Shown one piece after another: positions 18,802 through 60,529 of a stretch of DNA of 64,000 bases; position 1 is the stretch's first letter; each line of letters starts with the position of its first letter. Under the pieces are notes generated by a model. It saw only the letters and a program-made list of their open reading frames with translations. It searched no databases and was not told the DNA's origin. The position numbers and the translations under genes were made by a program. Source of the DNA: Sedimentisphaerales bacterium (lineage in GTDB: Bacteria; Planctomycetota; Phycisphaerae; Sedimentisphaerales; SM23-30). The DNA is taken from NCBI GenBank assembly GCA_028281535.1, contig JANQJS010000038.1, positions 62,001 through 126,000 of the forward strand. The letters are read 5' to 3'.

Positions 18802-19377
18802 ATGAAAAAAACGATGAGTATTCTTATTGTGATGCTGTGTTTTGTAAGCACCAGTTATGGTTTTATCTCTTTCGATATCGAAGTGAATGATGCCCCTTAT
18901 GTTGGACAGGATTTATATCCAGGTGACTTTGTCGATGTGACCATGAGGGAAACGGTGCTTTGGTTTGGAGGACATTCTGGGGTAAAAACTAATTTTTCAT
19001 TTGGGAATGAAATAAGTATTTCCGATTTGATTTTTCCGCATCCAAATTTTCTTGCAAGTTTCGCAAGGCCAGCTCCGTTGGATCCTGGTTTAACCGGATT
19101 TACTGTTGAGAGTGGTTTTTCTACGATCGACGGAAGTATACTTGGGACTGCATTTGATTTTTGGCATACGCGATTACAGATCCCGGTTAATGCTCAGCCA
19201 ACAACTTTGGTGATTGATATGTATCAAGGAGCTTTTGGAGGTACTTCCCGTGGTAATGCAGCAGTTGGGCCAAATGATGGGTGGGCATATCAGGAACTTA
19301 CCGTATTGCCTGAACCTGCTACTATGGCGTTGCTAGGACTGGGTTCGCTAACTGTTTTACGTCGCCGACGTAGCTAG
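18802..19377 (+). CDS. PEP-CTERM protein of unknown function
   Basis: A 191-residue exported protein: signal peptide (MKKTMSILIVMLCFVSTSYG), a beta-rich domain of about 145 residues, and a C-terminal PEP-CTERM tag (LPEPATMALLGLGSL, then VLRRRRS) for exosortase-dependent sorting. AGGAG lies 8 nt before the ATG. The central domain contains FISFDIEVNDAPYVG and YPGDFVDVTM and resembles other short planctomycete PEP-CTERM proteins, but I recognise no function. Its last 21 bp overlap the end of the convergent mtnA gene. Confidence 0.82.
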   Translation: MKKTMSILIVMLCFVSTSYGFISFDIEVNDAPYVGQDLYPGDFVDVTMRETVLWFGGHSGVKTNFSFGNEISISDLIFPHPNFLASFARPAPLDPGLTGFTVESGFSTIDGSILGTAFDFWHTRLQIPVNAQPTTLVIDMYQGAFGGTSRGNAAVGPNDGWAYQELTVLPEPATMALLGLGSLTVLRRRRS

Positions 19378-22809: not shown

Positions 22810-25800
22810 CTAAAGATTTGAGACGATTTTACTATGCCCGAAAGGTATGGTGTCGATGGCACCAGAGTTTAAGTTGATGATGACTTCGAGGAATTTGACT
22901 TCGTCCATGATAACAGGATAATCTTTTGTCCCGAAGCATTGGATGGTTTTGGTCGTATTTGAGTAGTCAAATTCTTTGCCCGCAACAAATAAATGACGCT
23001 TCTGATCTTTTAACTCGAAAACAATATGTCCTTGGGCGTTGATCTTGCTGATGCGTTGAAGGCGGTCATTTTCTTTGGGGTCTTCTTGTGGAGGCTTGTT
23101 GGTGTTGTTGTTTTGAGTCAAGCCAACATTTAGCAAATCACAGGATAGTCTTTTGATATTTTTAGTTAGGTGGTGGGGTTCCAGAGTATCAAGCGTCAGA
23201 TCGTTGCTATCAAGAATGATCTGGTCCAGGGTGACATCGCCAAGAAAAATGGCTTCACCGTTTGTTGTCGAAAATTGCAATTGCTCTTTAAAAGTTAGTA
23301 GCGTGTAAGCGGGTTGTTGCGAATCAAAGAAATTGATTTGGGTCGTGGGTTGTTGTGATTTTGTCGGCTTTGCTTTCTTTGTTGGTTTACTTTGATAATT
23401 CATATAATGCAGCCAGCCAGCCCCATTTGCGATTAGCAAAGACCTGGATGTGTCAAATCGCAATTCTGGTACTTCCATGGCCATTAATGAAACGGGTTCA
23501 TGTGAGTTTAGTAATATTTGGTTTGACTCAATTTGAACAATAGGGCCTGGAGCGTAAAAACCTCCAACTTCTCGACTGTTCGTTGATTGGGAAGTCGAAT
23601 TACTGGTGGTCTCAACTAAATCAACCGTAAGGATGTCGGTTGTGATATTCGTGGTTGTTTTGGCTTTTTTGTCTGTTTGCGTTATTTCAACTTGGACGTC
23701 ATTTAAATCAATTTGATTTTTACTTAAATGATACGTTGCTCCTTTGTTCCACTGGATAATAACAGGGGTGTCGCTGTTGCTATTTGACGAAGATAAGCTT
23801 TGGCTCAATTGCGTTGTTAATTTGCCATTACCAGGTATGCTATATTTTTCATTAAGTAGATCTGCGATGATGACGTCGCTTTCAAGCTGGTCAGTGTGAT
23901 TCTGTTTGTTGGGGGAAATAAATTTGGCTTTTTGGCCATACACTTTAAATTGCTGAGTGGTAAAATCACCTTCAAGTCGATCGCCCAAGATTTGATTCTG
24001 GTTTTTCTTTTCAATGATTTGGACGCCATCATGTCGTCCTGTTGCAATCGCATATTTGATATTGTTCTGTTGGCTTAGCAGTGTGTCAACGCCTAATGAA
24101 TCCTTTTGGTTCGTGGATGTGGTATTGCGTGTGTGATCAAATTCTATGATGATGTTTTCGCTAGCCTTAATGATATAATCAATGGATTCAGCTTTCGCCG
24201 ATTCAAGTGCTTTTACCTGGTGTAATTCGCTCTTACCTTCATCGTTGAGGTTAAATTCTGCCACCAGGCGGTTTCCAGAAAAAACAAATTCCTGGCCGAT
24301 AGCAAAGACCTGTCCTTTCCAGTCAATCGAGTTGATAATGGGTGTTGACGAATTTTTTGTGCTAGAATGGTGTTTTGAGAAGTGTAATTTGCATTCATCA
24401 GATTGAATTTGCCCGTTGGTCGATTCTGCAAAGATGCCACCTTGAAAATGTATCCATTCAACTTTTTGCTTTGCATCATATTTGATCACTGCTCTGTCGT
24501 CATATTTGACATGCAATGTGTCACTGTGATTATCGTTGGATGCTTGGATAATGCCTGGTCCAATTAATGTTGCAAGCCCATTGCGGTGATCGATCGTTGT
24601 GAGTATTGAATGAGCCCATTGATCTTGTGCAAAATGGAATTTGTTTGGGGTTTCTTTCGTTCCTATTAGTTGGATTTGATTAATAGCATCATGGTAAGTT
24701 AGTTTTAACGTCGTAGAGCTGAGCTGGTTATTTTGCCAGAAATTAATAGGAGATCCTTGTGCTTGAATTGACAACGAAGCGTTGTCGGTGAGATCGTCTA
24801 CTGTTGCAGGTGTAATGACAAGAGGTCCTTTGCATGTTAATGATGTTTGTGATGAATTAAAGTCGATCAATGCCATGTTGCTATTAGCATTGGTTGAGTT
24901 AGATTTAGTTTCTAAAGGAGTTTTTGTTTCGGGTTTAAGAAAATCATCTTTTGCAATAATATCCAGGCTATCCATTTCGATAAGTGAATTTTCCTGAATG
25001 ATTTTAACTTGATCCGTTAAAGAAATCCTATAGATATTTGGCGTTTTAGGTTTGGGTGGCTTCTGTTGTTTTGGAGATGGAGGTGAGTTCGGTTTGACTT
25101 TTTCTGAGTTGTTTGATGTTGGAGTGGTTGAATTGACAAATTGAAGGTGTTCAAGCTCTCTTAGTACCAATTCCTGAAGATGATTTTCTTTTAGCTGATC
25201 ATAGCGAACTGAGAGATCGCTTCCTAATACAGAAAATTGTTTCGAGGTTAACCGCACCTGCCCAATTGAATTGATTTGAGAAAATTCTCGTTGAAAATCG
25301 ACCTGGTTTAATTCTACCAGCATGTCTAAATCATCAACATTGATCGGTTGATCTTTCTGTTGTGCCCAGAGGGGATATACTTCTATTTGGACATCACCCT
25401 TTAAAGAGCCACTATCAGGCAGCTTTTCTTCAGATTCAACAGCAGTTTCAAGTGAATCAGCTGTGATGCGAACCACTTGCTGTTTATCATAGAATTTTAT
25501 CCAGGGATTCACGAATTCGTGATCACCTGACTCATTCACATTTCGGTGGTCAAATCCAAATTCATTTTTTATGACGCCTTTGGGGCTTCGTGAAGTGAAT
25601 TTGAATGATTTTACATCCGAGACACGTACATTGCTTCCCATCCTGACACTGTTTTTGGTTTCGTTTGATGTAGAAGTATTGCTTGGGGGATCAGCGACTG
25701 GATCGTCAGGCAGCACCATGGGAGCTTGTTTTTTATCATCAACAAGCTGTGGTGTTTCTGAGGTAAACTGATATACAATGAGACCGATTATCACGGCCGC

Positions 25801-25836
25801 CAAAGTGATCAGTGCGGGTGCCAGACGTTTAATCAT
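22810..25836 (-). CDS. Very large LptC/OstA-like periplasmic protein (LPS export)
   Basis: A 1,008-residue protein with an N-terminal membrane anchor (about residues 5-24, LAPALITLAAVIIGLIVYQF), a Pro/Ser-rich linker and then long runs of short beta-strands with LptC/LptA (OstA)-like character, e.g. FYDKQQVVRITADSLE, RLEGDFTTQQFKVYGQKAKF, VELNQVDFQREFSQINSIG. Low-complexity Ser/Asn/Thr/Lys linkers separate the modules. It lies 33 bp after kdsC and belongs to kdsD-kdsC, so a role in moving LPS across the periplasm is likely. E. coli LptC is 191 residues; this one looks like several jellyroll modules fused, perhaps forming the periplasmic bridge by itself. No lptB follows directly. Confidence 0.7.
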   Translation of the reverse strand: MIKRLAPALITLAAVIIGLIVYQFTSETPQLVDDKKQAPMVLPDDPVADPPSNTSTSNETKNSVRMGSNVRVSDVKSFKFTSRSPKGVIKNEFGFDHRNVNESGDHEFVNPWIKFYDKQQVVRITADSLETAVESEEKLPDSGSLKGDVQIEVYPLWAQQKDQPINVDDLDMLVELNQVDFQREFSQINSIGQVRLTSKQFSVLGSDLSVRYDQLKENHLQELVLRELEHLQFVNSTTPTSNNSEKVKPNSPPSPKQQKPPKPKTPNIYRISLTDQVKIIQENSLIEMDSLDIIAKDDFLKPETKTPLETKSNSTNANSNMALIDFNSSQTSLTCKGPLVITPATVDDLTDNASLSIQAQGSPINFWQNNQLSSTTLKLTYHDAINQIQLIGTKETPNKFHFAQDQWAHSILTTIDHRNGLATLIGPGIIQASNDNHSDTLHVKYDDRAVIKYDAKQKVEWIHFQGGIFAESTNGQIQSDECKLHFSKHHSSTKNSSTPIINSIDWKGQVFAIGQEFVFSGNRLVAEFNLNDEGKSELHQVKALESAKAESIDYIIKASENIIIEFDHTRNTTSTNQKDSLGVDTLLSQQNNIKYAIATGRHDGVQIIEKKNQNQILGDRLEGDFTTQQFKVYGQKAKFISPNKQNHTDQLESDVIIADLLNEKYSIPGNGKLTTQLSQSLSSSNSNSDTPVIIQWNKGATYHLSKNQIDLNDVQVEITQTDKKAKTTTNITTDILTVDLVETTSNSTSQSTNSREVGGFYAPGPIVQIESNQILLNSHEPVSLMAMEVPELRFDTSRSLLIANGAGWLHYMNYQSKPTKKAKPTKSQQPTTQINFFDSQQPAYTLLTFKEQLQFSTTNGEAIFLGDVTLDQIILDSNDLTLDTLEPHHLTKNIKRLSCDLLNVGLTQNNNTNKPPQEDPKENDRLQRISKINAQGHIVFELKDQKRHLFVAGKEFDYSNTTKTIQCFGTKDYPVIMDEVKFLEVIINLNSGAIDTIPFGHSKIVSNL

Positions 25837-27593: not shown

Positions 27594-30500
27594 CTATTGA
27601 TTTAGGTTGAGATTAAGTGTCGTGACAAAGAAATCGTCGAGATTGTAATTACTGGAAATCAGGTCCCGGTCGATTTTAAGTTTTTCGATATTTGTTTGTG
27701 CGATCAGGCCGAATGGATCTGCGTCATTATTGGCATCTACATTTTTAAGAAGGATATCACCGATAAATCCGCTGGCTGTATTGGCTGAGCCTTTAATGAA
27801 ATTTCCCTGGTCATCTGGAGCGATACCCACGGCGATGTTACTTGAGCCGAATGAGCCGTTAACTCGTAATGAATTCAGGGTGGCATTGATTTGTGCGGAC
27901 GCATTAGAACTGTCTTGCTGCTGGTTAAGAGAGTCATAGCCGATAACGATATTACTGTCGATCATGTCATTGTCGACTCTAATCTTATCAATGCTGTTGA
28001 TGGCATTGATCTCGGCATGATTGATATTCATGGCTCTGATTTTTCCAATCGAATTTTGAGATTGGATGGTTGAGCTGATTGTTCCGTCATTAACCAGTAA
28101 TCGGTCAATATTATTTTCAACAGTGACAGCTCCCATCAAATTGCCATGGCTGATTTTCAATGTGTTGAGAGATCCTTCGACGTTGATATCGCCTAAAACT
28201 GAATCATTCTTGACGATGAGTTTATTTAGATTACTTTCTGTGACATTGATATCTGCATCAAGTCGCCCATTGATTTTTAGGTTTTCAATACTTGGGCTGG
28301 ATAGTTGGCCGCCGACAAAATTAGATGCTGAGAAGCTATTAATCGGTGCTTGAATATCAAGCGTGTTGTTACCGACGACGTGGCCTAATTTAATATTGAC
28401 TGGATCGTTATTTGAGAATTGAATGTCTGCATTCGAAAGGACATGACCGAGTTTGAGTCTATTTAGTTGGCCTTCCAGAAGAATGCCATCTCCGACTAAT
28501 TCCACTTTGCTGGCTGAAATACTATTTAAGTCATCACTGCCTCTGATTTCTCCTAATCTGGTTCTGCCCTGGCCATTGACGTTGATATTCAAGTTGGCAT
28601 TTTCATCACCCGTTAAGAGTGTGATAGATTGAATATCAGGTTGAAGATCGGAGCCAAGGGTTACTTCGGCTGTGGCATCGCCACTCAGTGAAATCTTAAC
28701 CTGGTCACCGCTCTGATCGGTGAACTGATAATTTTGGCCTTTACCGATGGTTGCATACCCATCAGCGCTTAAGTCTAACTCCGCAGACGTTTGGTTTAAG
28801 TCATTAGAGGTAAGGATTAATTTATCAGTCACTTCGCGGGCAAGAGCGGTATTGAAATCAACCTGAACCGTATAAGAAGCCCCAGAAGGGATGTAAATTT
28901 GATCGTATGACGCTAAATGAAAATCATTGTCATTGGATAGTACCAAATGAATGGTAATGGGCATGTTGCCATTATTCGTTAGTTCCCATGCATCGAATTG
29001 CGTTTGTGTGTGAACTTCCTGGCGATCGAGGTCGATCTGGCCATCATTGTTGCCATCCAGTTCGGTAATTTGCAATACGCCGGCTAATGTTTCAGCTTGC
29101 AGTGGAATTTCAGTGTAAGGTGATTCGATATCGTTGGTCGTAATTTTCAGCATGCCTTCAGCCAGGCCGATATCATCAGGATTTAAGCCAATGCTTAAAT
29201 CGATTGATTCGCCTGCGGCCAATGACAAATTATCCAGTCCGCTATTCAGTGATGGCGTGACATAGAATCCACCATTTGCGGTAATGGAATTAATGTCTAA
29301 GTCGGCATCGCCGCTATTGGTCAACGTGATTTTCTTTTCTTTTGCATTGCCAACGATCACTGATCCTAAATCAATGGTTTCGGTATTAATATCCAATTCG
29401 CCACCTAAGACGTTCGCTTGGATGTCGATGGTTTGTGTTGGGGTATCTGGGTCATTGCTGCTAATGGTCAGGTCACCTGAAAATAGTCCGCGTTGTGTGG
29501 CTAATATTTCCAGTGTTAAATCATGACTTTGTCCAGGAGTGAGTGTTTCGGATTGCGGATTCACTAAAATAAGATTACTGGATACGTCGATTTGATCTAA
29601 TGTCAAATTTGCATGTCCGGTATTTGTGACAGTGATGGTTTGAGTAAACGTTTCACCACGAATGAGATCGCCAATAGTTAATTGGTTATTATCAAACGAT
29701 CCCTGGCCAACGTGAATATCAATGTCTGGTTGCGCTTCCAGCACGTTTGAAGAGAGTGCGATATAGCTGACTGGTTGATCAGGATCATTGCTGGCAATTT
29801 TAATGAGCCCGTTCATCGGACCAAGTTGAGTCGGGGTAAACGACAAGATAACTGGTAAATTGCTGCCTGGTGTAATAATGATATCATCCGAGCTGGTCGA
29901 GGCCAGGCTCGTAGTATTGATTGAGAATCCTGCGGTAGCAATTAACTCTGTTACATGTAAATCAAGTAAGCCATTATTGCTGATGGTGACAACAGCGGAC
30001 TTGTTTGTATTGATGGTAATGTCACCAAAATTCATCACGCGATCTGAGCTATTGCCAATACTATCGGTGATTTGAATATCACCTGATTGCTGTGGCATTG
30101 AAAAATTGACATCGAGAACATAATTACCAACTGATTTTAGGTCTTCACTACCTATGCGAGCATAATAGGTTTGGCCTGCAATGATATTACTTGCCAGGAT
30201 CGATTCTGAACCACTTATGCCATTGAAATCAGACCGAGCAACTAAATCTCCATTGATATCATACAATGATAATACGCCATCCCAGTTTCCAGTAATATCC
30301 AGACCTAAATCGAGGCTGCCTGTCGTGTTGTGTGGGGAAACAAATCGATAATAATCGCTGTCGGCCTGGCTAATACTTCCCAGACGGCTGCCATGACCTG
30401 TTACGTCCACAGTTAAATTAGAGCTGATCACATTAGAACTATCCAGGCTCAGGGTATAATTTCCGCTGGCGTTCTCATCGATTGATCCTACAACCAGGTA

Positions 30501-32237
30501 ATAGGTTTGCCAGGTTGTAGCCTGCTGACCAAAGGAGGCAGATTGTAATTCGCTATTATCGACATTCCATTCTAAGAGGTCGCCATTGGCATCATAGAGT
30601 GCAGAATATATGCCGGTTTGAGCTCCATCAATATCAATTGACATTGTACCAGAAACATCCAGTGCGAATTTATAGATATCTATTTCTGAACTACTGCTTA
30701 GATTGCTATGGATGACTTGGTTTCCAAAGGGATTTGGTTCAAGCGTTGTAGCATCTGCTGTCACATCAATCTGTTGGTCGGGTTCAAAATCAAGGGCATT
30801 ACCAATATTAAGCGTATAGCTTCCTGAAGATAAATTGTTCAAACTGGATACTTCAATGGTGTATTTTTGTCCAGCAACGGTGGTAAAGCTAATTGAAGAA
30901 TCTTTGCTGTCACTGTCGTTATCATTTTCAGCAATTTGTGATCCATTTTCCAGAACACGCATGAAAGAGTTTAAGTTTGTAAAGCTATGGGTATCAATAT
31001 CGATGGTCAACGACCCACTGGAGGTAGCCGTAAATTCAAAAGTATCAATATCATCGCGTCGTTCCAGGATGCCATCGATACTACTATTTGTTGAGACTTG
31101 ATGAGCAGAGGCTGTGTTATCGCCATAGTCATCACTTCCGTTTGCATAGCCCAGGTTATTACCGAGTAAGCTTTGTGTGTCCTGTTGCATTCCTGATCCA
31201 TACACATTATTACTACCAAACATGCTCGTGCGAGGTGAGAGTGGTAAAAATGGGTTCATGATTGCAGAAATATCGTCAATGTGATTTGCGCCAAAGGTAT
31301 GGGCTGCTTCGTGTGAAATCAAGTTCGCGGCAAATTCGCTGAATTTGAATAGGCTCCCAGCAGACGAATTAAAGTAGACTGACATTTCATCGGTAAAGGC
31401 AAAGCCATAATTGCTATCGCGTTTATTACCAACGTCATAACTGGCGACACCAATCACGCCGCTATTGGCCTGAAACCAATCGTTGTTGCCACCCACAAAA
31501 ATTGTGGTGTATTGATCCGCAGTGGGGCGTTCTGTGACGACTTCAATATTATAAGGTGCATAATCTTCTTTAATAAATTCAACCATGTAGTCAATGGCTT
31601 CAGCTTCGCGTCCACCCCAACCATAGCGAGCTAAGCTAAATTCTGGAACAGTCGCATTGTAACTGTAAAGCCAACTATCATTCGAGCGACCAGAAACTTG
31701 AGCGCCATCAAAATCTAAATAGAGCAGCTTTGGACTACCAGCCGTCATGAAATCATCACCCGATAATTGCATTTCAATGGATTCAGATTCGGTGCTGGCA
31801 TAGGCTTCAGAGCTGCTGCAGGCACATCCAGCGCAACCGCAGTCCTTGCCATGATTATGTGGTTGGTTACCTGCTGATATATCGTCATGAATATGGTCGT
31901 CACCGAAAACCGTATCAACCAATTCATGTAATTGACTATGGTTCAGTGTGGTTGATTCACCAAAAATAGCGGATAAATCCCAAGTGCTTGGGTCTGAATA
32001 AAATGGATCGGCAAATCCATCTGTGTGTTTATGTGGGTGAAAAATGTGGTTTAGATCATCGAGAAGTTGTTGAGCGTCTGGTGTATCTGTGGTGAGTTGG
32101 TTCAGGTCAAAGCCTTGCGTCCATTCCTGGGTGGCGTTTAATAGTAAGCGGGAATCAAGCTTTTCCAATGCAACCTGAGGTCTGCGTTTGGCAGGTGCTT
32201 TTCTTTTTTGCTTGTTTTTTCGATACCTGGATCTCAT
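27594..32237 (-). CDS. Giant secreted surface protein with metzincin protease, PPC and ASH (choice-of-anchor D) domains
   Basis: From the ATG at 32237 (GGAG 7 nt before it) the protein is 1,547 residues; an ORF extension to 32327 lacks a ribosome site. A Lys/Arg-rich start leads into the planctomycete export motif LEKLDSRLLLN (residues 24-34). Next comes a His- and Cys-rich stretch (NQPHNHGKDCGCAGCACSSS), then a metalloprotease domain with the zinc motif HEAAHTFGANH (about residues 309-319) and a Met-turn-like SAIMNPF. Several PPC-like beta domains follow (about 400-720), then ASH-type modules (about 720-1120, recurring VTISNNG / TLTNSGDADL patterns), and finally a beta-helix-like region ending in a module shared with the 52535-60529 protein. 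Likely a cell-surface or extracellular protease. Confidence 0.85.
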   Translation of the reverse strand: MRSRYRKNKQKRKAPAKRRPQVALEKLDSRLLLNATQEWTQGFDLNQLTTDTPDAQQLLDDLNHIFHPHKHTDGFADPFYSDPSTWDLSAIFGESTTLNHSQLHELVDTVFGDDHIHDDISAGNQPHNHGKDCGCAGCACSSSEAYASTESESIEMQLSGDDFMTAGSPKLLYLDFDGAQVSGRSNDSWLYSYNATVPEFSLARYGWGGREAEAIDYMVEFIKEDYAPYNIEVVTERPTADQYTTIFVGGNNDWFQANSGVIGVASYDVGNKRDSNYGFAFTDEMSVYFNSSAGSLFKFSEFAANLISHEAAHTFGANHIDDISAIMNPFLPLSPRTSMFGSNNVYGSGMQQDTQSLLGNNLGYANGSDDYGDNTASAHQVSTNSSIDGILERRDDIDTFEFTATSSGSLTIDIDTHSFTNLNSFMRVLENGSQIAENDNDSDSKDSSISFTTVAGQKYTIEVSSLNNLSSGSYTLNIGNALDFEPDQQIDVTADATTLEPNPFGNQVIHSNLSSSSEIDIYKFALDVSGTMSIDIDGAQTGIYSALYDANGDLLEWNVDNSELQSASFGQQATTWQTYYLVVGSIDENASGNYTLSLDSSNVISSNLTVDVTGHGSRLGSISQADSDYYRFVSPHNTTGSLDLGLDITGNWDGVLSLYDINGDLVARSDFNGISGSESILASNIIAGQTYYARIGSEDLKSVGNYVLDVNFSMPQQSGDIQITDSIGNSSDRVMNFGDITINTNKSAVVTISNNGLLDLHVTELIATAGFSINTTSLASTSSDDIIITPGSNLPVILSFTPTQLGPMNGLIKIASNDPDQPVSYIALSSNVLEAQPDIDIHVGQGSFDNNQLTIGDLIRGETFTQTITVTNTGHANLTLDQIDVSSNLILVNPQSETLTPGQSHDLTLEILATQRGLFSGDLTISSNDPDTPTQTIDIQANVLGGELDINTETIDLGSVIVGNAKEKKITLTNSGDADLDINSITANGGFYVTPSLNSGLDNLSLAAGESIDLSIGLNPDDIGLAEGMLKITTNDIESPYTEIPLQAETLAGVLQITELDGNNDGQIDLDRQEVHTQTQFDAWELTNNGNMPITIHLVLSNDNDFHLASYDQIYIPSGASYTVQVDFNTALAREVTDKLILTSNDLNQTSAELDLSADGYATIGKGQNYQFTDQSGDQVKISLSGDATAEVTLGSDLQPDIQSITLLTGDENANLNINVNGQGRTRLGEIRGSDDLNSISASKVELVGDGILLEGQLNRLKLGHVLSNADIQFSNNDPVNIKLGHVVGNNTLDIQAPINSFSASNFVGGQLSSPSIENLKINGRLDADINVTESNLNKLIVKNDSVLGDINVEGSLNTLKISHGNLMGAVTVENNIDRLLVNDGTISSTIQSQNSIGKIRAMNINHAEINAINSIDKIRVDNDMIDSNIVIGYDSLNQQQDSSNASAQINATLNSLRVNGSFGSSNIAVGIAPDDQGNFIKGSANTASGFIGDILLKNVDANNDADPFGLIAQTNIEKLKIDRDLISSNYNLDDFFVTTLNLNLNQ

Positions 32238-32593
32238 GTCAAAACTCCGTAGATCATAAGTTCGTACAGAGCGTCTGAAGAGCCGACGAGTTAGTCGCGG
32301 CCATCTTTCCCATGCATCCAGGTGCAACGCTACGTTGTAAAAATTCCAAGTGTCAGTGAATTTATTACTGACGACAAATGAGGTATCGGTTCACTTGTCG
32401 GAGTAAATAAGTTAGTACCGAGAAAAAATGATTTTTCAGTACTGATATTCGTGATGTTATTTGACCTAGTTGTTACAGGCCCTATAGCTTAAGAAATGAT
32501 GCCGGAATAGACGGAATAATCCTACTATGAGGCAGCATTTCACTAACCCCTACAGATGGATCGGCTTAACTATTTTGAATCAAGCTACAGAAA
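32238..32593 (-). promoter_or_regulatory. Long leader of the giant metzincin-type gene
   Basis: If the promoter at 32594-32622 is used, about 350 nt of untranslated RNA precede the start codon. The stretch holds no convincing ORF beyond the in-frame extension, and no riboswitch class that I recognise. Length alone suggests post-transcriptional control. Confidence 0.35.
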
Positions 32594-43033: not shown

Positions 43034-43627
43034 TTATTTAGAATCTAAATTTTGATGCATCGTTACATGGCACTGAAAGCAATTGGTTCGCTCATTGTGC
43101 GGGCCTGGTAAGCCAGGTTGGCCTGCAAATTTTGCACTATGGCATGTTGCACAATTTTCCCGCATAAACACACGGTGCGGTAAAGTTGGTGGGGCAAATG
43201 GATTTTGACGGGTACCTTTACCTGGCGTTTCCAAGCCTTCCCAATTGTTTTCTGCCTGCTTTTTTTCTGATTTTATAAAACGAGGCTTAGTACCTTTAAC
43301 ATGGCACTGCTGGCAATTCTTAAAATGAGGATGGGGTGTTTTATTGGCAAAATGCCCCATAAACTCTATGCCATTTTTATGACAATTCAAACATTCGCGA
43401 TCACTGGAACCAATTTCATGCGGAATCACAGGAGGCGCTGTAAAATATGCCCGTCGTGACTCGCGCGTTTCCAATCCTTCTATTACAAAACTAGGCATTT
43501 TAGGTTTTGTAGGTCCTTGCGTATGACTCTGAGCATGAATGACGGCTGGTTCAGGTGTCGACAAAAATAAAGCGATCGTCCCTAAAAGCACCGCGAAGCT
43601 AAAAATATATTTTAGTGTCGATTTCAT
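43034..43627 (-). CDS. napB: NapB-like periplasmic cytochrome c with four heme motifs (duplicated)
   Basis: About 197 residues from the ATG at 43627, which overlaps the napA stop as ATGA; a longer ORF reading starts inside napA. After a signal anchor (MKSTLKYIFSFAVLLGTIAL) there are four CxxCH sites: CLNCH, CQQCH, CATCH and CFQCH. Standard NapB has two. The halves look like repeats: the first is APPVIPHE ... CLNCH ... CQQCHV, the second APPTLPHR ... CATCH ... CFQCHV. The subunit passes electrons to NapA; here it may carry a longer heme wire. It follows napA and precedes the hypothetical gene. Confidence 0.82.
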   Translation of the reverse strand: MKSTLKYIFSFAVLLGTIALFLSTPEPAVIHAQSHTQGPTKPKMPSFVIEGLETRESRRAYFTAPPVIPHEIGSSDRECLNCHKNGIEFMGHFANKTPHPHFKNCQQCHVKGTKPRFIKSEKKQAENNWEGLETPGKGTRQNPFAPPTLPHRVFMRENCATCHSAKFAGQPGLPGPHNERTNCFQCHVTMHQNLDSK

Positions 43628-45987: not shown

Positions 45988-46225
45988 CGATAGCCTCCAT
46001 GTCTTCAAAATTATGGTAAATTGCATTGACGCAAACCACACCTTCAATAGATTGAATCGCAGCAATGAGATATTTATCTTCACCGGGGTCTTCTGTTGCT
46101 GTTACAGCAATAATTTTTTGCTGCTCAACATCGGTGACTTCTGCGTTTTCCAGATCTTCAATTTTTGTTGTGACTGAATTAACACAATCTCTTTCTGCTT
46201 GTATAACTAATCCTGTGACAGGCAT
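45980..46225 (-). CDS. napD: NapD-type chaperone for NapA maturation
   Basis: About 81 residues from the ATG at 46225 (GGAG 7 nt upstream). The compact ferredoxin-like fold with PVTGLVIQAERDCVNSVTTKI and IAAIQSIEGVVCVNAIYH is that of NapD, which binds the Tat signal of NapA and coordinates its cofactor loading and export. The last 8 bp overlap napA. Identification rests on size, fold-like pattern and position right before napA. Confidence 0.85.
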   Translation of the reverse strand: MPVTGLVIQAERDCVNSVTTKIEDLENAEVTDVEQQKIIAVTATEDPGEDKYLIAAIQSIEGVVCVNAIYHNFEDMEAIDD

Positions 46226-46248
46226 GTCAAACTCCAATAAAAGGTTGT

Positions 46249-47694: not shown

Positions 47695-47706
47695 CTCTTA
47701 GCTCCT

Positions 47707-48915
47707 TTATGGTTTCGATGTATCATGATGAACCAATTGTCCGGAAAGTACGGGAATCGTGATCCGAACAAAAATGGTATATAGTAATAAACCAAATGCC
47801 CAGATACCCAGGCATACGAGTATTTCATTGAAGGTCGGGAGATATTCAACAATTTCACCCAGAGGAGTGGGGATAAATGCTGGAATAATCAAACCCATAC
47901 CTTTTTCAATCCAGATACCTAAAATCATCAGCACGCAAGAGATATTTAAGTATTTCATACTGCGGCTGATAGGTAAGAATAATAAAATAAGTGCAACCGT
48001 ATTCATGATGATAGCCGTCCAGATCCATGGCACGAGTGCATGGTAGCCATGCAGGCCAAGGAACAAATACTTGGCGGATGCAACATGAAGTGAGTCGGTA
48101 TAAAATTCAGTAAAGACTTCGCATACAAGTAAAAACATATTGATCGTTAATGCGACCGTAACAATGTTTTTCAGTACGCTCAATGCCTTGTCCGGGACAT
48201 GATAGCCTGTATTTCGGCCAATCACCTGGAGAGTAAGAATAATAAATGCAGGGCCTGCCGAAAACGCTGATGCTAAAAAGCGAGGTGCAATAATCGCCGA
48301 ATTCCAAAATGGCCGTCCACCTAAACCAACATATAAAAATGCCGTGACTGTATGGATGCTAATTGCCCAAATAATGGCAATGAATACAAACGGAATATAA
48401 AATGATTTACTGGGTTGGCGTTTGCGATATGCACAATAAATCAAATAGCCACAAACATGCAGATTCAACAGTAAATATCCATTCAAAACAATGACATCCC
48501 ATGTCAGCATTGAGATGGGGAAATTAAATCGAAGCAGCAAATGATGGAAACGATCCGGACGACCTAAGTCGACCGTGACAAACAACAGGCACATAATAAT
48601 GGCCGCAACAGCTAGCAATTCACCAAAAATAACCAGATCGTGCAAATCTTTGTTTTTATAAATATATACGGGGATAACCAGCATCACCGCTGCCGCTGCC
48701 ATACCTACAAGGAAGGTGAAATTCGCAATATACATTCCCCAGGAAACTTGATCTGTCATACCGGTGGTCACTAAACCATGAACCAACTGTTTGCAATAGG
48801 CGTTTAAACCAAGAAGGGTGATGACGGATAAGACAAACATCCATAAGTGGTATTGCCAGTTGCCAACAAAGCTAATTCGAAAACAGCGATATAAAAATGT
48901 TAAATAAGCACTCAT
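47707..48915 (-). CDS. nrfD: NrfD/PsrC-family membrane subunit (quinol oxidation)
   Basis: A 402-residue integral membrane protein with about ten hydrophobic segments, in the NrfD/PsrC family (WGMYIANFTFLVGMAAAA, VDLGRPDRFHHLLL, SMLTWDVIVLNGYLLLNL). Such proteins hold the quinol site and hand electrons to the ferredoxin subunit. It starts 2 bp after that ferredoxin gene's stop. The gene sits 12 bp upstream of the HAO-like cytochrome, so the complex probably feeds both it and NapAB. The symbol is by family; it could equally be called dsrP- or actC-like. Confidence 0.88.
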   Translation of the reverse strand: MSAYLTFLYRCFRISFVGNWQYHLWMFVLSVITLLGLNAYCKQLVHGLVTTGMTDQVSWGMYIANFTFLVGMAAAAVMLVIPVYIYKNKDLHDLVIFGELLAVAAIIMCLLFVTVDLGRPDRFHHLLLRFNFPISMLTWDVIVLNGYLLLNLHVCGYLIYCAYRKRQPSKSFYIPFVFIAIIWAISIHTVTAFLYVGLGGRPFWNSAIIAPRFLASAFSAGPAFIILTLQVIGRNTGYHVPDKALSVLKNIVTVALTINMFLLVCEVFTEFYTDSLHVASAKYLFLGLHGYHALVPWIWTAIIMNTVALILLFLPISRSMKYLNISCVLMILGIWIEKGMGLIIPAFIPTPLGEIVEYLPTFNEILVCLGIWAFGLLLYTIFVRITIPVLSGQLVHHDTSKP

Positions 48916-48917
48916 GT

Positions 48918-49937: not shown

Positions 49938-49949
49938 GGTTCTATCCGA

Positions 49950-52534: not shown

Positions 52535-55500
52535 ATGGCAAACAAGTCGCAGCGACGCTTGAGAAAACGTATGTTTAGAAGTCAGCAACAAACGTCCAAG
52601 TCTGATCAACTGCCTTTACGATTAGAAAGCCTCGAACAACGTGTATTGTTAAATGTTGATGGCTTTTGGGATGAACTAGGTTTCGGTGGCGCCTCCGGGG
52701 GTGGGATTACAAGAAACTATGAGGGGTTGAGTGATGATGGCGATGTCCAATTCGTTTTCAGTGAAGATTCAGACCCTGTTGCTATTTGGGTGCACGGATC
52801 AATAAACGAATATGTAAACACTCCGATCAATTATGATTTCCAAGCTCAAGGTGAAATTTATGCAAAGCAATTTGCTGGAAATCCAAATAATATTTCTGAT
52901 GCGTCTGATTTAGGTTGGTGGGATCTCAGTCCTGGAAGTGGTGATACCGTTTCTATCGGAACAGGAACTGAAATCGCAGCAGCGTCTGGACCTAATGGCG
53001 AAATTGTTGTTGTTTGGTTAACCCTGCCTGAAGATGATGGAGATCCAGAAACACCACTGCCAACGAATGATGTTCATGGTAGAATGTGGAATGGGACCGA
53101 ATGGCTGGAAATTGATGGCTCAGCAACAGGCGGGGGCATTAGCAATGATTCCGTGATGAATAGCAATCCGGATGTTGCTATATCGGATGGTGGTGAAATA
53201 TTTGTTTCATATACAGCTACGCACCCTTTAACGAACCAAACAGAAATTGTTGTTAAAGAATTTGGTTTCAATCTTGGTAACAGTAAATTAACAGGACCTG
53301 TTAATCCTGGTGATTTCAGCTGGTTTGAATTGGTCAATTCCGAGGTTGGCGATTTTGGTGTAAATAACCTCAGTGGGATAAGCAACGACTTAGCACAATC
53401 ATTTGATTCTGCTATTGCTTTGGATGTTGATGGTAAACCTATTGTGGTATGGACAAGCCTTGCCGCGCAAGATCAAGCAGAAATTTATGGCCTAAAGTGG
53501 GATGGCGATTCCTGGGAAGAAATTGGACTGGATAGTGCTAGTGAATCTGATAATGATGGTTTGACGGGGATTAGTAGTGATGCAGCCATGTCTATTCAAC
53601 CTGATATTGCTGTTGCAAGAAACGGTGATATTATTGTTACCTGGGTTGGATGGAATGATTGGGATAACTACGAGCCAACGCTTGTAAATCCTGCAGGTGG
53701 TCAAGCGGGCATTTATGTTAAATCCTTAAAGCAAGGTGGTGCTTGGGATGAACATGACACCAATAGTGCATTAGGCCAAGGCATTGCACCTGCTTTTGGT
53801 TGGTATTACAACCCTTCTATTGATACAGACAGCTCAAGCAATCCGTTAATTACCTATCAAGGATTCGCACCCTATGGAGGAGCAAATGGGTATGAAGTAC
53901 GGTTTGAATTAAATCGTGACTCTGATACTGAAACACCTTCTCCGGACGAAGATAGAGTTTCTGAAGCAGCTGTCATGCAAGTCTATGCCAGCCATTTTGA
54001 TGGAAATAATTTTGTTAATTTATCTTACAATGGCACGAATGGTAGAAACAGTGCAAACATAGATAATACTCCCGATCAAAGTATTCTAAACGATGGGGAT
54101 AGCTCAACAAATAATAATACTGGGCAAGAAACATTACAATCCTGGATGCCAAGTGCTTTTGTTGGTCCAAATGATGAACTAATTATAGGTTATTCTCGCT
54201 ATGATGTAAGGATTGATACCCAGCATGTTGATACTGAAATTTTTGTTCAACAGTGGGATGGGAATTCCTGGGAACCTTATGGCAAGGGAAGTAATTCAAC
54301 AGGAAATGTTGATATTAATGGTGAGTTTATCGGTGACTTCCCATCAGAATCCTCTGGTAACAATAAATTAGCGACGATCGATTTTGATAATGATCCTTTA
54401 ACGGATGATGATATTTTATATGCCAAGCAGGGAACTGGGTTTAACAACGATGGACGTTTATTCCTATTCGATCGGCAAACTGGCAGTTGGACCGCAAGTG
54501 CGGATCATGAGCTGGGTGGTGTCTTTGATATTCGAAGTGAACCTGAAAGTGAATTTAATATTACGGGGCCTGCATTGTTGGCGTATATCGATGACGATAC
54601 AGGTTTGCCGGAGGTCTATAAATGGGACTCTGGCATTTGGGCACAAGTGGGTGATAATGATGGTAATAAAGCTGGCACAATTAAGGGGACGAAAAGTGCC
54701 TATCTCGACAATAACAATGTGATAAATGTTGCAGAAGATCGATATGGTATTTCAGTACAAGCGGGTCAAAATAATACTATATTTTTAGCCTATTTATCAG
54801 ATGTGAATGGCGACAAAGATGGTATCCTCGAAGCGGGTGAAACCAACGAGGTGGTAACGCGTTATTATGATGGGAATACCTGGCAGGATGTCGGCAGTGG
54901 TGTTGGGTTAAAGGGCTCACCTTTAACGCCAGCGTATTTAGCTGATTTTACCGGCACGTCAGAATGGGAAATTACTGATCGGGCTCTTGATGAAACTACA
55001 TTTATTCCTACAACGCCATTAACTATGGGCAACTGGTTCTTTTCTGATAGTACAAGATATGACCAGGCAGGTATTGCTCAAGGAGAATATCCCACATTAG
55101 TGACTCATGAAGAGGGTGTCGCAAGCACACTCCTCGAACTGGTTGTTCCAATTGAAACAACAAACAACGGGGATGGTGACAGTGCCGTTGCCATTATATT
55201 AACTGATCCTGTAAGTACTGAAGCGGGAGATGTTGGTAGTCAGGTGAGTGGACGCGATGTGATAGGAAGATTGGATTTCCAGTTTGAGTTAGCAGCATTA
55301 AGTGATATTGTTGTACATACAAATTATTTAGTTGGAACATCTCAAGGTAGTGACGATTCTGTAAATTTTGAAATATGGATAGATAAAGGGTATGGCAACG
55401 ACTTTAACACTGGAACTGAAATTTTTGATTACGTGGATGATATTACACCTAATTTGAATGAAGAACTTAATCCTCTACGTGCCCCCAAACAATTAATTAT

Positions 55501-58500
55501 TGATACAAAAGATAGGTCATTCGCTCAATTCGCACAAGGGCCTCATACGATTTCAATTATAGCTACGATGAGAGCTGATGGAGGTAACGGGCTAACAGGA
55601 GACGCTGCCGCTGATGAATTGGGGATTGCTGCATTTGATGATTTTGCGGTATATCAGCGAATTGATGGGTCAAGTGATGGTTTAGTCGCAGGTTTGCATG
55701 ATCAAGATTTACCAAGCTCAGAGGACACGCGATGGCGAGTAGATGATGCGGGTGTTGATGGAAATAATGCTGTAGGGCCTGATGAGCAATTTGATTTTCA
55801 AGGTAGTTTATTTATTAATGGTTTAAATACTTATAAGGTAGAAGATATTAATCAAGCAGGCGGTGGAGATATGGAAATTAATTTTCGATATCTCCTTGAT
55901 AATGCTTCCAAATTCAAAGTTAGTATCAGTAACTCAGATGCAAGTATCCTGAGTTCACCACTTGAAGTAGAAATTGATGATAACTTTTTGCAGAACACAC
56001 TTGGTCAGCCTGCCATGTCACCCGGCGAATGGTGGAATGAAGCTGTTGAAGCCGAAGATGCTGAATATAATTATGTGTCACTGCGGCTTGAAGATTTTAG
56101 TTCTACACAATTATTGCTACCTGCATCAGATACATATACTGTGACAATTGAAAGTTTAGAAGCAGGCGGGGTATTACGAATTGATAACTTGTCTATTTTG
56201 ACGACGCCTATATCGCATGCAGCAAAGCCTATTGCAACATTGTTACCTGCAGGCTCAGGTGGTACACGGTCTTTTGCATTAGGTATTACCTCTCGAATTG
56301 AAAATATTAGCGTCTATAATTCATTAGGAGATGATACAACCGGTGAAGAAGAGACTGGGATTATTTTGCCACTACCTGATGGCATTGTGACTTCTTGGAC
56401 AAGTGATTTTCTCAGTGGATATCATACCCCATCTATTTTTACGCTTGATATTTCCAATAACAATCTGTTGACGGACTGGTCGCGATTTGGATTGGAATTT
56501 AATAACCTTACTCCTATTGACCTGTTAGGGGGAATCGGGGTTACCTCGAATTTACCGACCAATACCATCTATCGCTTGGAAGATATTGTCACTGGACCTA
56601 ACGCGCAAACCTGGATCGCTTTGCAAAGAGCGACATCTGAGTTTGTAGATGCAAATGAAGATGGCGTGAACGATCGCTTTGATGTGCATCCCTGGGATGA
56701 TCTCGATCCTGAAGATTACTGGAATGTAAATAATACCATTATTGATGCCGAAGTATGGGAATGGAATCCAAGTCCGAATCCGGTGACTGGAGCGCCACCT
56801 GCTTGGGTGATCCGATTTGGAGCACCTCAGGATGATCAAGGTGGAGGTCAGGAGGAACCAGATCCAAATTTTGGTACGCCACGATCCGTCGTGCGGGGGT
56901 ATACCGACATTAGCTTGGCCAGTGCTGGGCAACCTATTTTAGTCTGGAATAATCGCGCAGATAATTCTGCTTATATTGGCAGTGCAAGTGGCCAGATATT
57001 TGTGCCTGGAACTGGGTGGGGAGGTCTTGGCCCTAATCCATTGAATCAGACCTCTGACGGTATCCAGAACGGGCAAAACTGGAGTCGCCAGATTTTGCAA
57101 GATTTGGTGATTATGCCAAATGGCAACCCGATTACGGCATTTGAGTTGGATCAACTTGATGCAGATGGTATACGCGAATTCATACCATCTCAAAGTTTGC
57201 CTGCTATGACTGTCGTTGAAGATGCTGGGATTCAAAATGATAATATTCTGGATTTTGGTTTAGCATTGGATGATGTTGTTAATCGTCCATTCTCTATCTT
57301 CAACAGCGGTCCTGGGGATTTGGTCATTTATGATACCGATTTAGTGGGTGGATTAGGATCTTTAACATCGAATCCATTTTCATTGGGAAGTAATACACCC
57401 GCGTTTCCTATTACGATACCTTCAGGAAGTTCGCGCAGTATTAATGTGCAGTTTGATCCTACAAATGTACCCTCTGGAAGTTATTCATCCATATTGATTA
57501 TCAATAATAGTGACCCATTTCATCCAACCCATGAATTTTCTCATCAATATGAATTGAATCTTGAAGTGGAAGTGATCAATCAGGCAGAAATTTCCGCTCA
57601 GCCTGATTGGTTGATTTTTGGTGACACGGTAGTCAATCAAACCTCTTCTACTGAAAAATTTGTCGTTACCAATGAAGGGGAAGACAATACAAGTCTTGTC
57701 ATTGATGAGTGGTACTTTACTGAAAACAATTACAGTATTATCAGTATTGAGTTCAATGATGCGTCTGCTGGAACGACTCAGCAGCTTGTAACATTAACGA
57801 ATCTTGCCGATAATTCAGCTGATGATATTACCCTGGATAAAGGTGATACATTAGAATTTGAAATACAGTTTGCACCGACGGCTATTGAAGCTGCCAATGA
57901 AGTCTTTTTCATTTCAAGTAATGATACCGACCAACCCATTTTGCCCATTGCATTGACAGGGTTGAGTTTAAGTGGTGCCGCGATTACAGTAGAGAGTAAT
58001 GGTGTTAATGTGGCTGATGGTGGCACGCTGGATTTTGGCAGTGTTGTAACCAATACCAGTGACCAAATCGTTTTGGATATTACAAATAACGGAACAACCG
58101 ATTTAACGGTAGCGTCTGTTCAGGTCACCTCTGCAACCCCGGATTTGACAGTGCCATTTACTGAGAACATTGTGATTTCTGCTGGGCAAACTGTCTCGAT
58201 TCCAGTCAGTTACTTGCCTACATTAGATCCTGATCCTCTCGATCCGGGAGCGCCATTAGATCCTGAAAATCTAGAAGGTCGTGTTATTATTTTTAATAAT
58301 GATCCTGACGCGCTTGAACAGCAGTATCTAGTTAACTTTACGGGGCTAGGCGTGCCGGTTCAGCCGATTATTTCTACGACAGAAGTTAACAGTTCTACGA
58401 TAGTATCCTCATTAAATTTTGGGGCCACGAGTAAGAATGACCCCGTGACTCAATCCTTTGCCATCAATAATATTGGTGGTGATACTTTAACCATTAATAG

Positions 58501-60529
58501 TTTAACTTTTGAACCTGTTGGTATACCATTTTCTGTAACGACGGTGACGCCGTTTGATATTGGTGTTGGTGCTAACGAGTTCATCAACGTTACATTTGAT
58601 CCCTCCGCGGCTGGCAGTTATCAAGGCCAGTTGCGACTATTAAGTAATGATCCATCTAATGGCACGGTATTGCTTTCTTTGTTTGGTTCAGCAACAGATC
58701 CATTGTTGACAGTCTCTGATACAGAGATAGATTTTGGCGCAGTCGGGTTAAATGAAACATCAGAAACACGAACGGTAACGTTAACCAATACTGGTCAATC
58801 GAGTGTAACGATTACCAATTGGTCCATAACGCAAGGCGGTGGTATTTTTACCGTAGAACCTTTTGTCTCAGACATTATTCTAGCATCACAACAGTCTCAG
58901 GTGTTGGATGTGAATTTCATTCCAAATGCTGTGGGTGATTTAGAGGGTGAATTGACCATTACCAGTGATGATCCAAATAATCTTGTTACCGTCGTAGAGT
59001 TAGATGGTGAAGGGCAAACACCTGGTAAAGTTGGGTTAAATAAAACGAGTATTGAATTTTTACTGGATTCACTTGATCCATTGATTGCGTTGAAGGACAC
59101 AGGGCTGGAATTTATTACTATTACAAATAATGGGGAAAGTAATTTAACATTGAAAGGTTTACAGATTGTAAACAGTCAGTTAACAGATCCTGCCAATGAG
59201 GTCGAATTCACGGGTGGACCATTCGAGTTAAATATTGATGATAGCCAAGCAAATATCAGCCGCGATCGTTTAGATCCTGATGATGACAGTGATGATATTG
59301 TGTTAATACCAGGTGAGCCGCAAGTATTTAGTGTGGCATTTGTCCCGAATTCTGTCTATAACGACACGAAACAAATACGATTGTTTACGAGTGATCCTGA
59401 TACACCATATACCTATATCCCCTTAGCAGCTGAAAGTGTGTTTGCTCTTCAAGTCGGTGAAGGAGATGGGTTTACCGAGAAGAATCGTCGTTTCTTTGAC
59501 GCAAATGGTAATTTGGTTCAAGTAAAATTGACCGGAGGTGGTAGTGCCTATATCGTACTTGAAAATGGATTTGGTAGCGGTTCAAATATCTCACGAATTG
59601 AATTAGATGGAACTGAGACGAGTACAAACCTATCAATCAGTTCTTCTGGCCCAACGACCATTGGGCAGATATCAGGTGGGGCCATACGAAATCTTACATT
59701 GAAAAACGTGACAGTCGATGGCTCTTTAGATTTAAATCAAGATACAATTCCTGACTATGAATATGCGATTGATTTACATACCGTTGCCGGCAATTTGAAG
59801 CTAGATGATGTTAATGATGCAAAAATTCGTGTTGAAAATACGCCATCAAAGTCTGGTATGAATTTATCTGCACAAAACGTTGAAGATTCTGAATTTGACA
59901 TTCAAGGAAACACCAAACAGGTTCGATTTGATAGAATTGCCGATAGTTCATTTTCTGCAGATAGTGCAAAAAATGTTCGTATCAATAGTTCGTTTGAGGT
60001 TGACAGCTTGTTTGTTTTTGAAAATGAGTTAGGAAACTTTACTGCCAAGAAAGCAATATTCTCAGGTGCTATCAATGCACAAAGAGCAAATAATATTTCA
60101 TTGTTCAATGTTAATAATGCAGATATCAGTATTGAAGGAGAGCTTCGTGGATTAAATGTCCGCAATGATCTTATCAATTCACGCATACTCGCTGGATTTG
60201 ATCTCGGGTCTGATGGGCGATTAGGCGGTACTGGCACGGCTGCAGATACGTTGAAATCCAATGGGGTAATCAATAGTGCAAATATTCGTGGTGGAATAGA
60301 CGATAGTTTTATCGCTGTCGGGTTGGCATCAACTGTTGGTGATTTCTTTAATCCAACATCAACAGCTCCAGGTGCTATTGGACGCATTTCGATTGGTCAA
60401 ATTATAGGAATCGTTGATGGGTCGCCATTTGGTGTTGCCGCGACGACAAGTATTGGCAGTGTCAATGTTGGCGGACAAAATGTGAATCCTGGCGGATCAA
60501 TTGGTGAATTTAACGTCGAATTAAAATAG
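52535..60529 (+). CDS. Giant secreted surface protein with propeller-like, ASH and beta-helix regions
   Basis: A 2,664-residue protein, start supported by AAGGAG. A Lys/Arg-rich start precedes the planctomycete export motif RLESLEQRVLLN (residues 29-40). Residues about 60-800 hold repeats with the pattern DIAVARNGDIIVTWVG / IALDVDGKPIVVWTS and -W-D-G-x-x-W-E-, suggestive of BNR/kelch-like propellers. About 800-1560 is beta-rich with acidic, probably calcium-binding, stretches (DANEDGVNDRFD). About 1560-2290 has ASH/choice-of-anchor D modules (LDFGSVVTNTSDQIVLDITNNG-like units). The end (about 2300-2664) is beta-helix-like and shares a final module with the metzincin-type protein at 27594-32237. 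Role: adhesin, scaffold or S-layer component are all possible. Confidence 0.85.
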   Translation: MANKSQRRLRKRMFRSQQQTSKSDQLPLRLESLEQRVLLNVDGFWDELGFGGASGGGITRNYEGLSDDGDVQFVFSEDSDPVAIWVHGSINEYVNTPINYDFQAQGEIYAKQFAGNPNNISDASDLGWWDLSPGSGDTVSIGTGTEIAAASGPNGEIVVVWLTLPEDDGDPETPLPTNDVHGRMWNGTEWLEIDGSATGGGISNDSVMNSNPDVAISDGGEIFVSYTATHPLTNQTEIVVKEFGFNLGNSKLTGPVNPGDFSWFELVNSEVGDFGVNNLSGISNDLAQSFDSAIALDVDGKPIVVWTSLAAQDQAEIYGLKWDGDSWEEIGLDSASESDNDGLTGISSDAAMSIQPDIAVARNGDIIVTWVGWNDWDNYEPTLVNPAGGQAGIYVKSLKQGGAWDEHDTNSALGQGIAPAFGWYYNPSIDTDSSSNPLITYQGFAPYGGANGYEVRFELNRDSDTETPSPDEDRVSEAAVMQVYASHFDGNNFVNLSYNGTNGRNSANIDNTPDQSILNDGDSSTNNNTGQETLQSWMPSAFVGPNDELIIGYSRYDVRIDTQHVDTEIFVQQWDGNSWEPYGKGSNSTGNVDINGEFIGDFPSESSGNNKLATIDFDNDPLTDDDILYAKQGTGFNNDGRLFLFDRQTGSWTASADHELGGVFDIRSEPESEFNITGPALLAYIDDDTGLPEVYKWDSGIWAQVGDNDGNKAGTIKGTKSAYLDNNNVINVAEDRYGISVQAGQNNTIFLAYLSDVNGDKDGILEAGETNEVVTRYYDGNTWQDVGSGVGLKGSPLTPAYLADFTGTSEWEITDRALDETTFIPTTPLTMGNWFFSDSTRYDQAGIAQGEYPTLVTHEEGVASTLLELVVPIETTNNGDGDSAVAIILTDPVSTEAGDVGSQVSGRDVIGRLDFQFELAALSDIVVHTNYLVGTSQGSDDSVNFEIWIDKGYGNDFNTGTEIFDYVDDITPNLNEELNPLRAPKQLIIDTKDRSFAQFAQGPHTISIIATMRADGGNGLTGDAAADELGIAAFDDFAVYQRIDGSSDGLVAGLHDQDLPSSEDTRWRVDDAGVDGNNAVGPDEQFDFQGSLFINGLNTYKVEDINQAGGGDMEINFRYLLDNASKFKVSISNSDASILSSPLEVEIDDNFLQNTLGQPAMSPGEWWNEAVEAEDAEYNYVSLRLEDFSSTQLLLPASDTYTVTIESLEAGGVLRIDNLSILTTPISHAAKPIATLLPAGSGGTRSFALGITSRIENISVYNSLGDDTTGEEETGIILPLPDGIVTSWTSDFLSGYHTPSIFTLDISNNNLLTDWSRFGLEFNNLTPIDLLGGIGVTSNLPTNTIYRLEDIVTGPNAQTWIALQRATSEFVDANEDGVNDRFDVHPWDDLDPEDYWNVNNTIIDAEVWEWNPSPNPVTGAPPAWVIRFGAPQDDQGGGQEEPDPNFGTPRSVVRGYTDISLASAGQPILVWNNRADNSAYIGSASGQIFVPGTGWGGLGPNPLNQTSDGIQNGQNWSRQILQDLVIMPNGNPITAFELDQLDADGIREFIPSQSLPAMTVVEDAGIQNDNILDFGLALDDVVNRPFSIFNSGPGDLVIYDTDLVGGLGSLTSNPFSLGSNTPAFPITIPSGSSRSINVQFDPTNVPSGSYSSILIINNSDPFHPTHEFSHQYELNLEVEVINQAEISAQPDWLIFGDTVVNQTSSTEKFVVTNEGEDNTSLVIDEWYFTENNYSIISIEFNDASAGTTQQLVTLTNLADNSADDITLDKGDTLEFEIQFAPTAIEAANEVFFISSNDTDQPILPIALTGLSLSGAAITVESNGVNVADGGTLDFGSVVTNTSDQIVLDITNNGTTDLTVASVQVTSATPDLTVPFTENIVISAGQTVSIPVSYLPTLDPDPLDPGAPLDPENLEGRVIIFNNDPDALEQQYLVNFTGLGVPVQPIISTTEVNSSTIVSSLNFGATSKNDPVTQSFAINNIGGDTLTINSLTFEPVGIPFSVTTVTPFDIGVGANEFINVTFDPSAAGSYQGQLRLLSNDPSNGTVLLSLFGSATDPLLTVSDTEIDFGAVGLNETSETRTVTLTNTGQSSVTITNWSITQGGGIFTVEPFVSDIILASQQSQVLDVNFIPNAVGDLEGELTITSDDPNNLVTVVELDGEGQTPGKVGLNKTSIEFLLDSLDPLIALKDTGLEFITITNNGESNLTLKGLQIVNSQLTDPANEVEFTGGPFELNIDDSQANISRDRLDPDDDSDDIVLIPGEPQVFSVAFVPNSVYNDTKQIRLFTSDPDTPYTYIPLAAESVFALQVGEGDGFTEKNRRFFDANGNLVQVKLTGGGSAYIVLENGFGSGSNISRIELDGTETSTNLSISSSGPTTIGQISGGAIRNLTLKNVTVDGSLDLNQDTIPDYEYAIDLHTVAGNLKLDDVNDAKIRVENTPSKSGMNLSAQNVEDSEFDIQGNTKQVRFDRIADSSFSADSAKNVRINSSFEVDSLFVFENELGNFTAKKAIFSGAINAQRANNISLFNVNNADISIEGELRGLNVRNDLINSRILAGFDLGSDGRLGGTGTAADTLKSNGVINSANIRGGIDDSFIAVGLASTVGDFFNPTSTAPGAIGRISIGQIIGIVDGSPFGVAATTSIGSVNVGGQNVNPGGSIGEFNVELK

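Follow-up and report, generated by a model that had tools for sequence, protein, structure and literature searches.

A predicted beta-solenoid module of giant planctomycete proteins with a LEPR-XLL leader and its possible export through a SecA2/PqqD-M50-HlyD locus

Two giant proteins encoded on opposite strands of the same 64,000-nucleotide stretch of a Sedimentisphaerales genome (the window; contig JANQJS010000038.1, positions 62,001 to 126,000) resemble each other at both ends, which raises the question of whether these ends belong to one sorting system and what the C-terminal one is for. Giant protein 1 lies on the minus strand in an open reading frame of 1,577 aa (27594-32327) that is open to a TTG at 32327, the likely start being the ATG at 32237, which gives 1,547 aa (27594..32237). 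From the N- to the C-terminus it carries an export motif, a metzincin-like peptidase, a PPC domain, choice-of-anchor-D/ASH Ig-like repeats and a C-terminal module, probably a solenoid. The motif LEKLDSRLLL (32139..32168) is of the LEPR-XLL/Planc_extracel type and follows a Lys/Arg-rich stretch; it fits the pattern only, receives no NF012209 score and is a weaker variant. The peptidase shows the metzincin-type zinc site HEAAHTFGANH in its sequence (31281..31313) together with Reprolysin_2/M10 matches that are weak and below the Pfam cut-off, and the choice-of-anchor D/ASH-HYDIN Ig-like repeats were located with Pfam and NCBIfam at 29127..30038. The whole module of 386 aa (27597..28754) starts with a head F-x-D-x-x-G-x-x-V-x-I-x-L-x-G followed by the putative beta-solenoid, and its most conserved last ~146 aa (27621..28058; profile iE 1e-48, a seed member) stop 8 aa before the C-terminus and include SSNIAVG (27825-27845), GFIGDI (27753-27770), DADPFG (27708-27725) and AQTNI (27687-27701).

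Giant protein 2 (52535..60529, plus strand, 2,664 aa) consists of the N-terminal export motif, a long propeller-like region, choice-of-anchor-D repeats and again the C-terminal module. Its motif LESLEQRVLL (52622..52651), located after a basic stretch, passes NF012209 together with its neighbours (17.2 bits, cut-off 17), and the same leader stays under the cut-off of PF07595 (13.6 versus 25.5 bits). The long repeats in the window at 52650-57300 (residues ~40-1600) look beta-propeller- or lectin-like and have no Pfam match. The best-scoring of five choice-of-anchor D repeats is found at 58691..58978 (Pfam/NCBIfam) and the whole module of 360 aa at 59447..60526. The most conserved last ~148 aa in the profile (60077..60520) end 2 aa before the C-terminus and contain SFIAVG (60305-60322), GAIGRI (60371-60388), DGSPFG (60416-60433) and ATTSI (60440-60454).

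The C-terminal regions of the two giants could be aligned over 416 columns with 25% identity (BLASTP of this single pair, E=9e-12), and the last 130 aa of giant protein 2, used as query against the whole 4.44-Mb genome, retrieved giant protein 1 with E=3e-8 and picked up three further giants. As a second genome-wide E-value for the module is 7e-12 and a module profile gave zero matches among 660 shuffled proteins, we regard the likeness as common descent and not as chance. The short motifs that the first-pass annotation had noticed in both C-termini are present where it had placed them, and they mark the best conserved stretch within a homologous region that is longer (~360-390 aa) and, as judged from the alignments, common to both giants. 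Its layout is a small beta head F-x-D-x-x-G-x-x-V-x-V-x-L-x-G-x-G, then a putative parallel solenoid of ~20-residue units reading roughly x-I-G-x-V-x-V-x-G-x-L-x-x-S-x-I-x-A-G-x, and finally a closing cap that contains AG-x-D-x-G-x-DG, IAvG, G-x-IG-x-I, PFG, A-x-T-x-I and F-x-V. No Pfam or NCBIfam family above cut-off covers the module. Using a second query and then the profile we found it at nine places in the source genome, and matches are present in 14 of 392 planctomycete genomes as well as in six named contigs. The C-terminus of a 1,671-aa protein (C36, L068) shows only a weak likeness (hhalign 57%) and was left out of all counts. One protein of the source genome (C26, L014/L018; 4,142 aa) contains two copies of the module, both internal, and a further metallopeptidase (HELGH) close to the C-terminal end.

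The N-termini of the module proteins are just as uniform. We scored 26 full module proteins with a single profile of the module's conserved C-terminal end, and all 26 have the motif [LVIFA][EQ]-x-[LMF][ED]-x-R-x-x-[LMFP] near their start, the C26 protein (AECLESRVLL) being counted only by allowing A as first residue. The shuffled expectation of this motif is 0.00019 per 150 residues (~2e-4 per protein), and since the profile was built from the opposite end of the protein, the pairing had not been selected for. The first-pass annotation had already ascribed a basic N-terminus with an L-E-x-L motif to both giants, which is correct for LEKLDSRLLL and LESLEQRVLL, and the co-occurrence of both ends, for which it had suggested a profile search, is thus the rule. 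The pairing is one-way, as motif proteins without the module also occur in the source genome (C17, C37). The C17 protein (L066 571-13704, minus strand; 4,378 aa) combines the LEPR-XLL-type leader METLEQRVLL with a dockerin-like C-terminus that has two DxNxDxxxxxxD repeats. At the other extreme of size, outside the window, a 464-aa protein (C60:209426-210817; L071 927-2318, minus strand) has little beyond a LEPLERRELL leader and the module, and represents a natural minimal construct for experiments.

The leader itself is not new. According to PMC8567305, which quotes Studholme et al. 2004 for the planctomycete export motif with the consensus RRLxxExLExRxLLA, this motif is present in 8 of the ten longest proteins of Tuwongella immobilis, and the proteomic support for a surface or extracellular location of motif proteins comes only from other species (PMC8567305). 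The window giants share with Planc_extracel (PF07595) and LEPR-XLL (NF012209) the consensus, its position, the basic flank and the giant surface-type proteins; in contrast, the variants seen here often score just under the curated cut-offs, and neither the C-terminal module nor a link to an export locus is part of these families. A variant leader VEALEVREVFDAA at 4390-7920 of L131 (G121), beside an M50/SecA2 locus, suggests that the motif is broader than both families. The leaders of the module proteins are Lys/Arg-rich and nearly all of them have no hydrophobic core, which makes them unlike classical Sec signals. The N-terminal export signal of the first-pass annotation matches a known export motif, its tie to a particular exporter being one of co-occurrence and linkage.

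This tie leads to a locus encoding a second SecA, an M50 peptidase fused to HlyD, GAF-HlyD, HlyD and an outer-membrane efflux type protein (OEP). In the excerpts of Kamneva et al. 2015 (PMC4452313), where a secondary SecA was described together with type-I-secretion-like proteins, its role is given as unknown and no substrate is named for the SecA_DEAD/Peptidase_M50/GAF-HlyD/HlyD locus. The gene set of that report is matched here, dispersed in the source genome and together in relatives (L103, L105, L106, L107); what goes beyond it is the proposal of LEPR-XLL proteins as substrates and a PqqD-like domain seen N-terminally in the M50 protein. Outside Planctomycetota, Methylobacterium extorquens AM1 is one of the genomes with the locus. 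The source genome encodes a second SecA of 654 aa (C53), three M50-HlyD, each adjoining one of three GAF-HlyD genes, and at least one HlyD. Its second SecA lies apart from the M50/HlyD genes, and both window giants are encoded at a distance from the locus. Five of six related genomes have, in addition to a longer SecA, one of 651-690 aa. The PqqD domain PF05402 is above cut-off in one of the three source-genome M50 proteins (C61) and below it in several M50 proteins. Besides the two giants the window has 38 ORFs of at least 150 aa, and a Pfam scan of 34 of them (the remaining four overlap longer ORFs) revealed no secretion locus, but mainly housekeeping and respiratory-chain genes. A respiratory-complex-like cluster with multihaem cytochromes, a molybdopterin oxidoreductase, an Fe-S protein and an NrfD-like membrane protein is located at 43034-50723, and a 1,008-aa ORF at 22810-25836 has no Pfam match at E<=0.001.

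Physical linkage between leader and locus was found in several places. On a Nitrospira-binned contig the genes that come after a giant with motif and module encode GAF-HlyD, an M50-HlyD whose N-terminus is PqqD-like, a SecA of 676 aa, two HlyD-like proteins and an OEP. A motif-bearing giant is encoded in or beside the locus in L103, L112, L113, L114, L106 and on source contig C27, where a 2,936-aa giant with the variant leader VEELEERIAPAA lies directly upstream of GAF-HlyD, HlyD and M50; the locus-linked giant of L103 itself carries the module. In L112, L113 and L114 no more than a few kb separate the motif-bearing gene from the locus, and the same holds for variants in L106 and L131; many other M50 loci have no motif-bearing gene nearby. 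The first-pass annotation had advised looking for a co-occurring sortase-like or secretion gene, and a secretion locus could indeed be found, but it goes with the N-terminal motif and not with the module.

The same association appears at the level of whole genomes. Of 199 planctomycete genomes taken in a single draw, 45 have PqqD-M50, 20 have LEPR-XLL above cut-off and 19 have both (hypergeometric P=2.6e-13, uncorrected for phylogeny and inflated by the kinship of the genomes). All eight module genomes of this draw have M50, and one LEPR-XLL genome (G165) has none. If PF07595 replaces NF012209 as marker, a weak association is left (15 of 40 hits, P=0.013, again inflated by relatedness); we rejected it as a statistical marker of the motif as it is too noisy at 20 positions and many of its hits are probably noise. 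It could also be that LEPR-XLL proteins and the locus merely share lineages and large genomes while the giants leave the cell by another way, e.g. through Sec with an atypical leader. The phylogenetic non-independence of the genomes would fit this, and so would the locus being more widespread than the NF012209 hits, 26 of the 45 M50 genomes having no LEPR-XLL above cut-off. We nevertheless consider such a coincidence rather unlikely, because the 24 families with M50 include 12 of the 13 with LEPR-XLL, the linkage recurs in several unrelated genomes including the Nitrospira-binned contig, and the leader has no hydrophobic core.

The reading that we favour, if only slightly, is that the module is a structural part of giants which are exported via their N-terminal LEPR-XLL motif, likely by the SecA2/PqqD-M50-HlyD/GAF-HlyD/HlyD/OEP locus. 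Recognition of the leader, which is basic and not hydrophobic, would take place at the inner membrane. As binding of leader peptides is a property of PqqD-type domains, the best candidate for the receptor would be the PqqD-like domain in the M50 protein. SecA2 might then push the giant protein chain, the HlyD-OEP conduit might carry it out of the cell, and the module might fold once outside, serving as stalk or terminal cap and perhaps binding a ligand or Ca. A more far-reaching version, to which we give not quite an even chance, would make the LEPR-XLL leader the address of a distinct diderm secretion system composed of SecA2, PqqD-M50-HlyD, GAF-HlyD, HlyD and OEP and lacking an ABC transporter. 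The leader would be read by the PqqD-like domain, and the module would have evolved with, and be restricted to, the substrates. Such a system would resemble type I secretion (RTX) in its HlyD and OEP-type partners and its giant modular substrates. It would differ from it as the proposed signal is N-terminal and the RTX signal is C-terminal, as the excerpts of PMC4452313 report no ABC transporter in the SecA2/M50/HlyD locus, and as the Pfam matches of the two window giants include no RTX repeat family.

AlphaFold2 models of the module from two different lead sequences reached pLDDT 88.6 and 84.8 and pTM 0.88 and 0.84 and are all-beta with regular short strands, values to be read with the shallow alignments (8 and 5 rows) and the tendency of repeats to overconfident prediction in mind. 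Models and repeat pattern together point to a beta-solenoid. A Foldseek search with both models found nothing at E<=0.001 in PDB or BFVD, the best matches having E=0.018 (PDB) and 0.13 (BFVD), and a search by sequence gave no PDB match either; the module is therefore an uncatalogued domain without a close solved structure in Pfam, NCBIfam, PDB and BFVD. For the second model the nearest PDB chains belong to two-partner-secretion domains and to a beta-helical antifreeze protein that depends on Ca (E>=0.018, TM<0.4). Ranked by E-value, beta-helices of the two-partner-secretion/filamentous-haemagglutinin type (HxuA, HMW1, EtpA) come first for this model, although not significantly (E=0.018, TM<0.25). 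Proteins of this type are, like the module giants, large and exported and have a beta-solenoid, which in the giants is predicted, whereas the module is C-terminal or internal and is not an N-terminal TPS domain.

This weak resemblance to adhesin-like beta-helices and to the antifreeze protein, along with the solenoid prediction, the conserved D/G-rich loops and the partner domains that vary from protein to protein, could also mean that the module is a solenoid tip of the giants for adhesion or for binding ligands or polymers, exposed by its C-terminal position and having no part in export. No conserved pocket or catalytic residues were found in the module and internal copies lie away from the tip, and we see in such a purely adhesive module a possibility with clearly less than an even chance. 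It is however compatible with the favoured role as a structural part of exported giants, and the two do not exclude each other.

The position of the module also bears on the proposal of the first-pass annotation that it is a C-terminal anchoring or secretion tag. The module ends 0-24 residues from the C-terminus in 12 of the 26 proteins, and the other 14 run on for at least 93 residues; two of the internal cases (G185 and G172) are cut off by the end of the fetched stretch, yet run on for at least 209 and at least 258 residues after the module. A terminal position was observed in 7 of 8 proteins of the source genome compared to 5 of 18 elsewhere. In L052, L053, G311 and G295b the module directly follows the N-terminal motif, and in Nitrospira- and Acetobacteraceae-binned contigs it stands close behind it. 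The C-terminal preference is thus real in the source lineage, yet the module is not confined to the C-terminus. Since internal copies are no rarer than terminal ones, we rejected an obligatory C-terminal sorting tag.

A less strict tag, similar to the T9SS CTD, PEP-CTERM or LPXTG types, handled by a dedicated enzyme and paired with the N-terminal signal, would agree with the terminal copies and with the constant company of the N-terminal motif. We consider it improbable, as the internal copies speak against a function as signal, the module with its ~360 aa and predicted fold is unlike short tags, and motif proteins of the same genome have other C-termini. The C-termini of the module proteins have no hydrophobic anchor, the maximal 15-aa hydropathy in the last 40 aa of the two giants being 0.32 and 1.05, and a scan of the two giants' C-termini revealed neither an LPXTG-type tail nor a PEP motif, membrane helix or basic tail. 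A sortase, for which the first-pass annotation had suggested looking, was not found, as the source genome contains no PF04203 gene, and with no fitting tail the module as sortase substrate was rejected. Among the Pfam and NCBIfam matches of the two giants scanned there is also no T9SS C-terminal sorting-domain family. An ordinary C-terminal sorting route does exist beside the module, as three exosortase genes are present in the source genome and a PEP-CTERM protein (PF07589 above cut-off) is encoded in the window at 18802-19377; this route is separate from the module, which was rejected as a PEP-CTERM signal since the giants have no such tail. Finally, a convergent beta-helix repeat composition without common descent, conceivable for a repetitive, I/G-rich sequence in 20-residue units, is highly improbable in view of the genome-wide E-values, the shuffled controls and the conserved order of specific non-repeat motifs (head, AG-x-D-x-G-x-DG, PFG, F-x-V end).

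In summary, leader and locus have each been known before, the motif since 2004 and the locus since 2015, and what is added here is the uncatalogued module together with the proposed connection of leader and locus, which our data support but do not prove. In the literature searched, as far as excerpted, the motif is described without exporter and the locus without substrate, and no paper joining the two was found. Should the connection fail, the module would still be an uncatalogued domain, but an ordinary one. If it is true, the link between motif and locus would offer a testable exit route for the giant proteins of planctomycetes and some other diderms, and the new solenoid domain family would mark a subset of its substrates.
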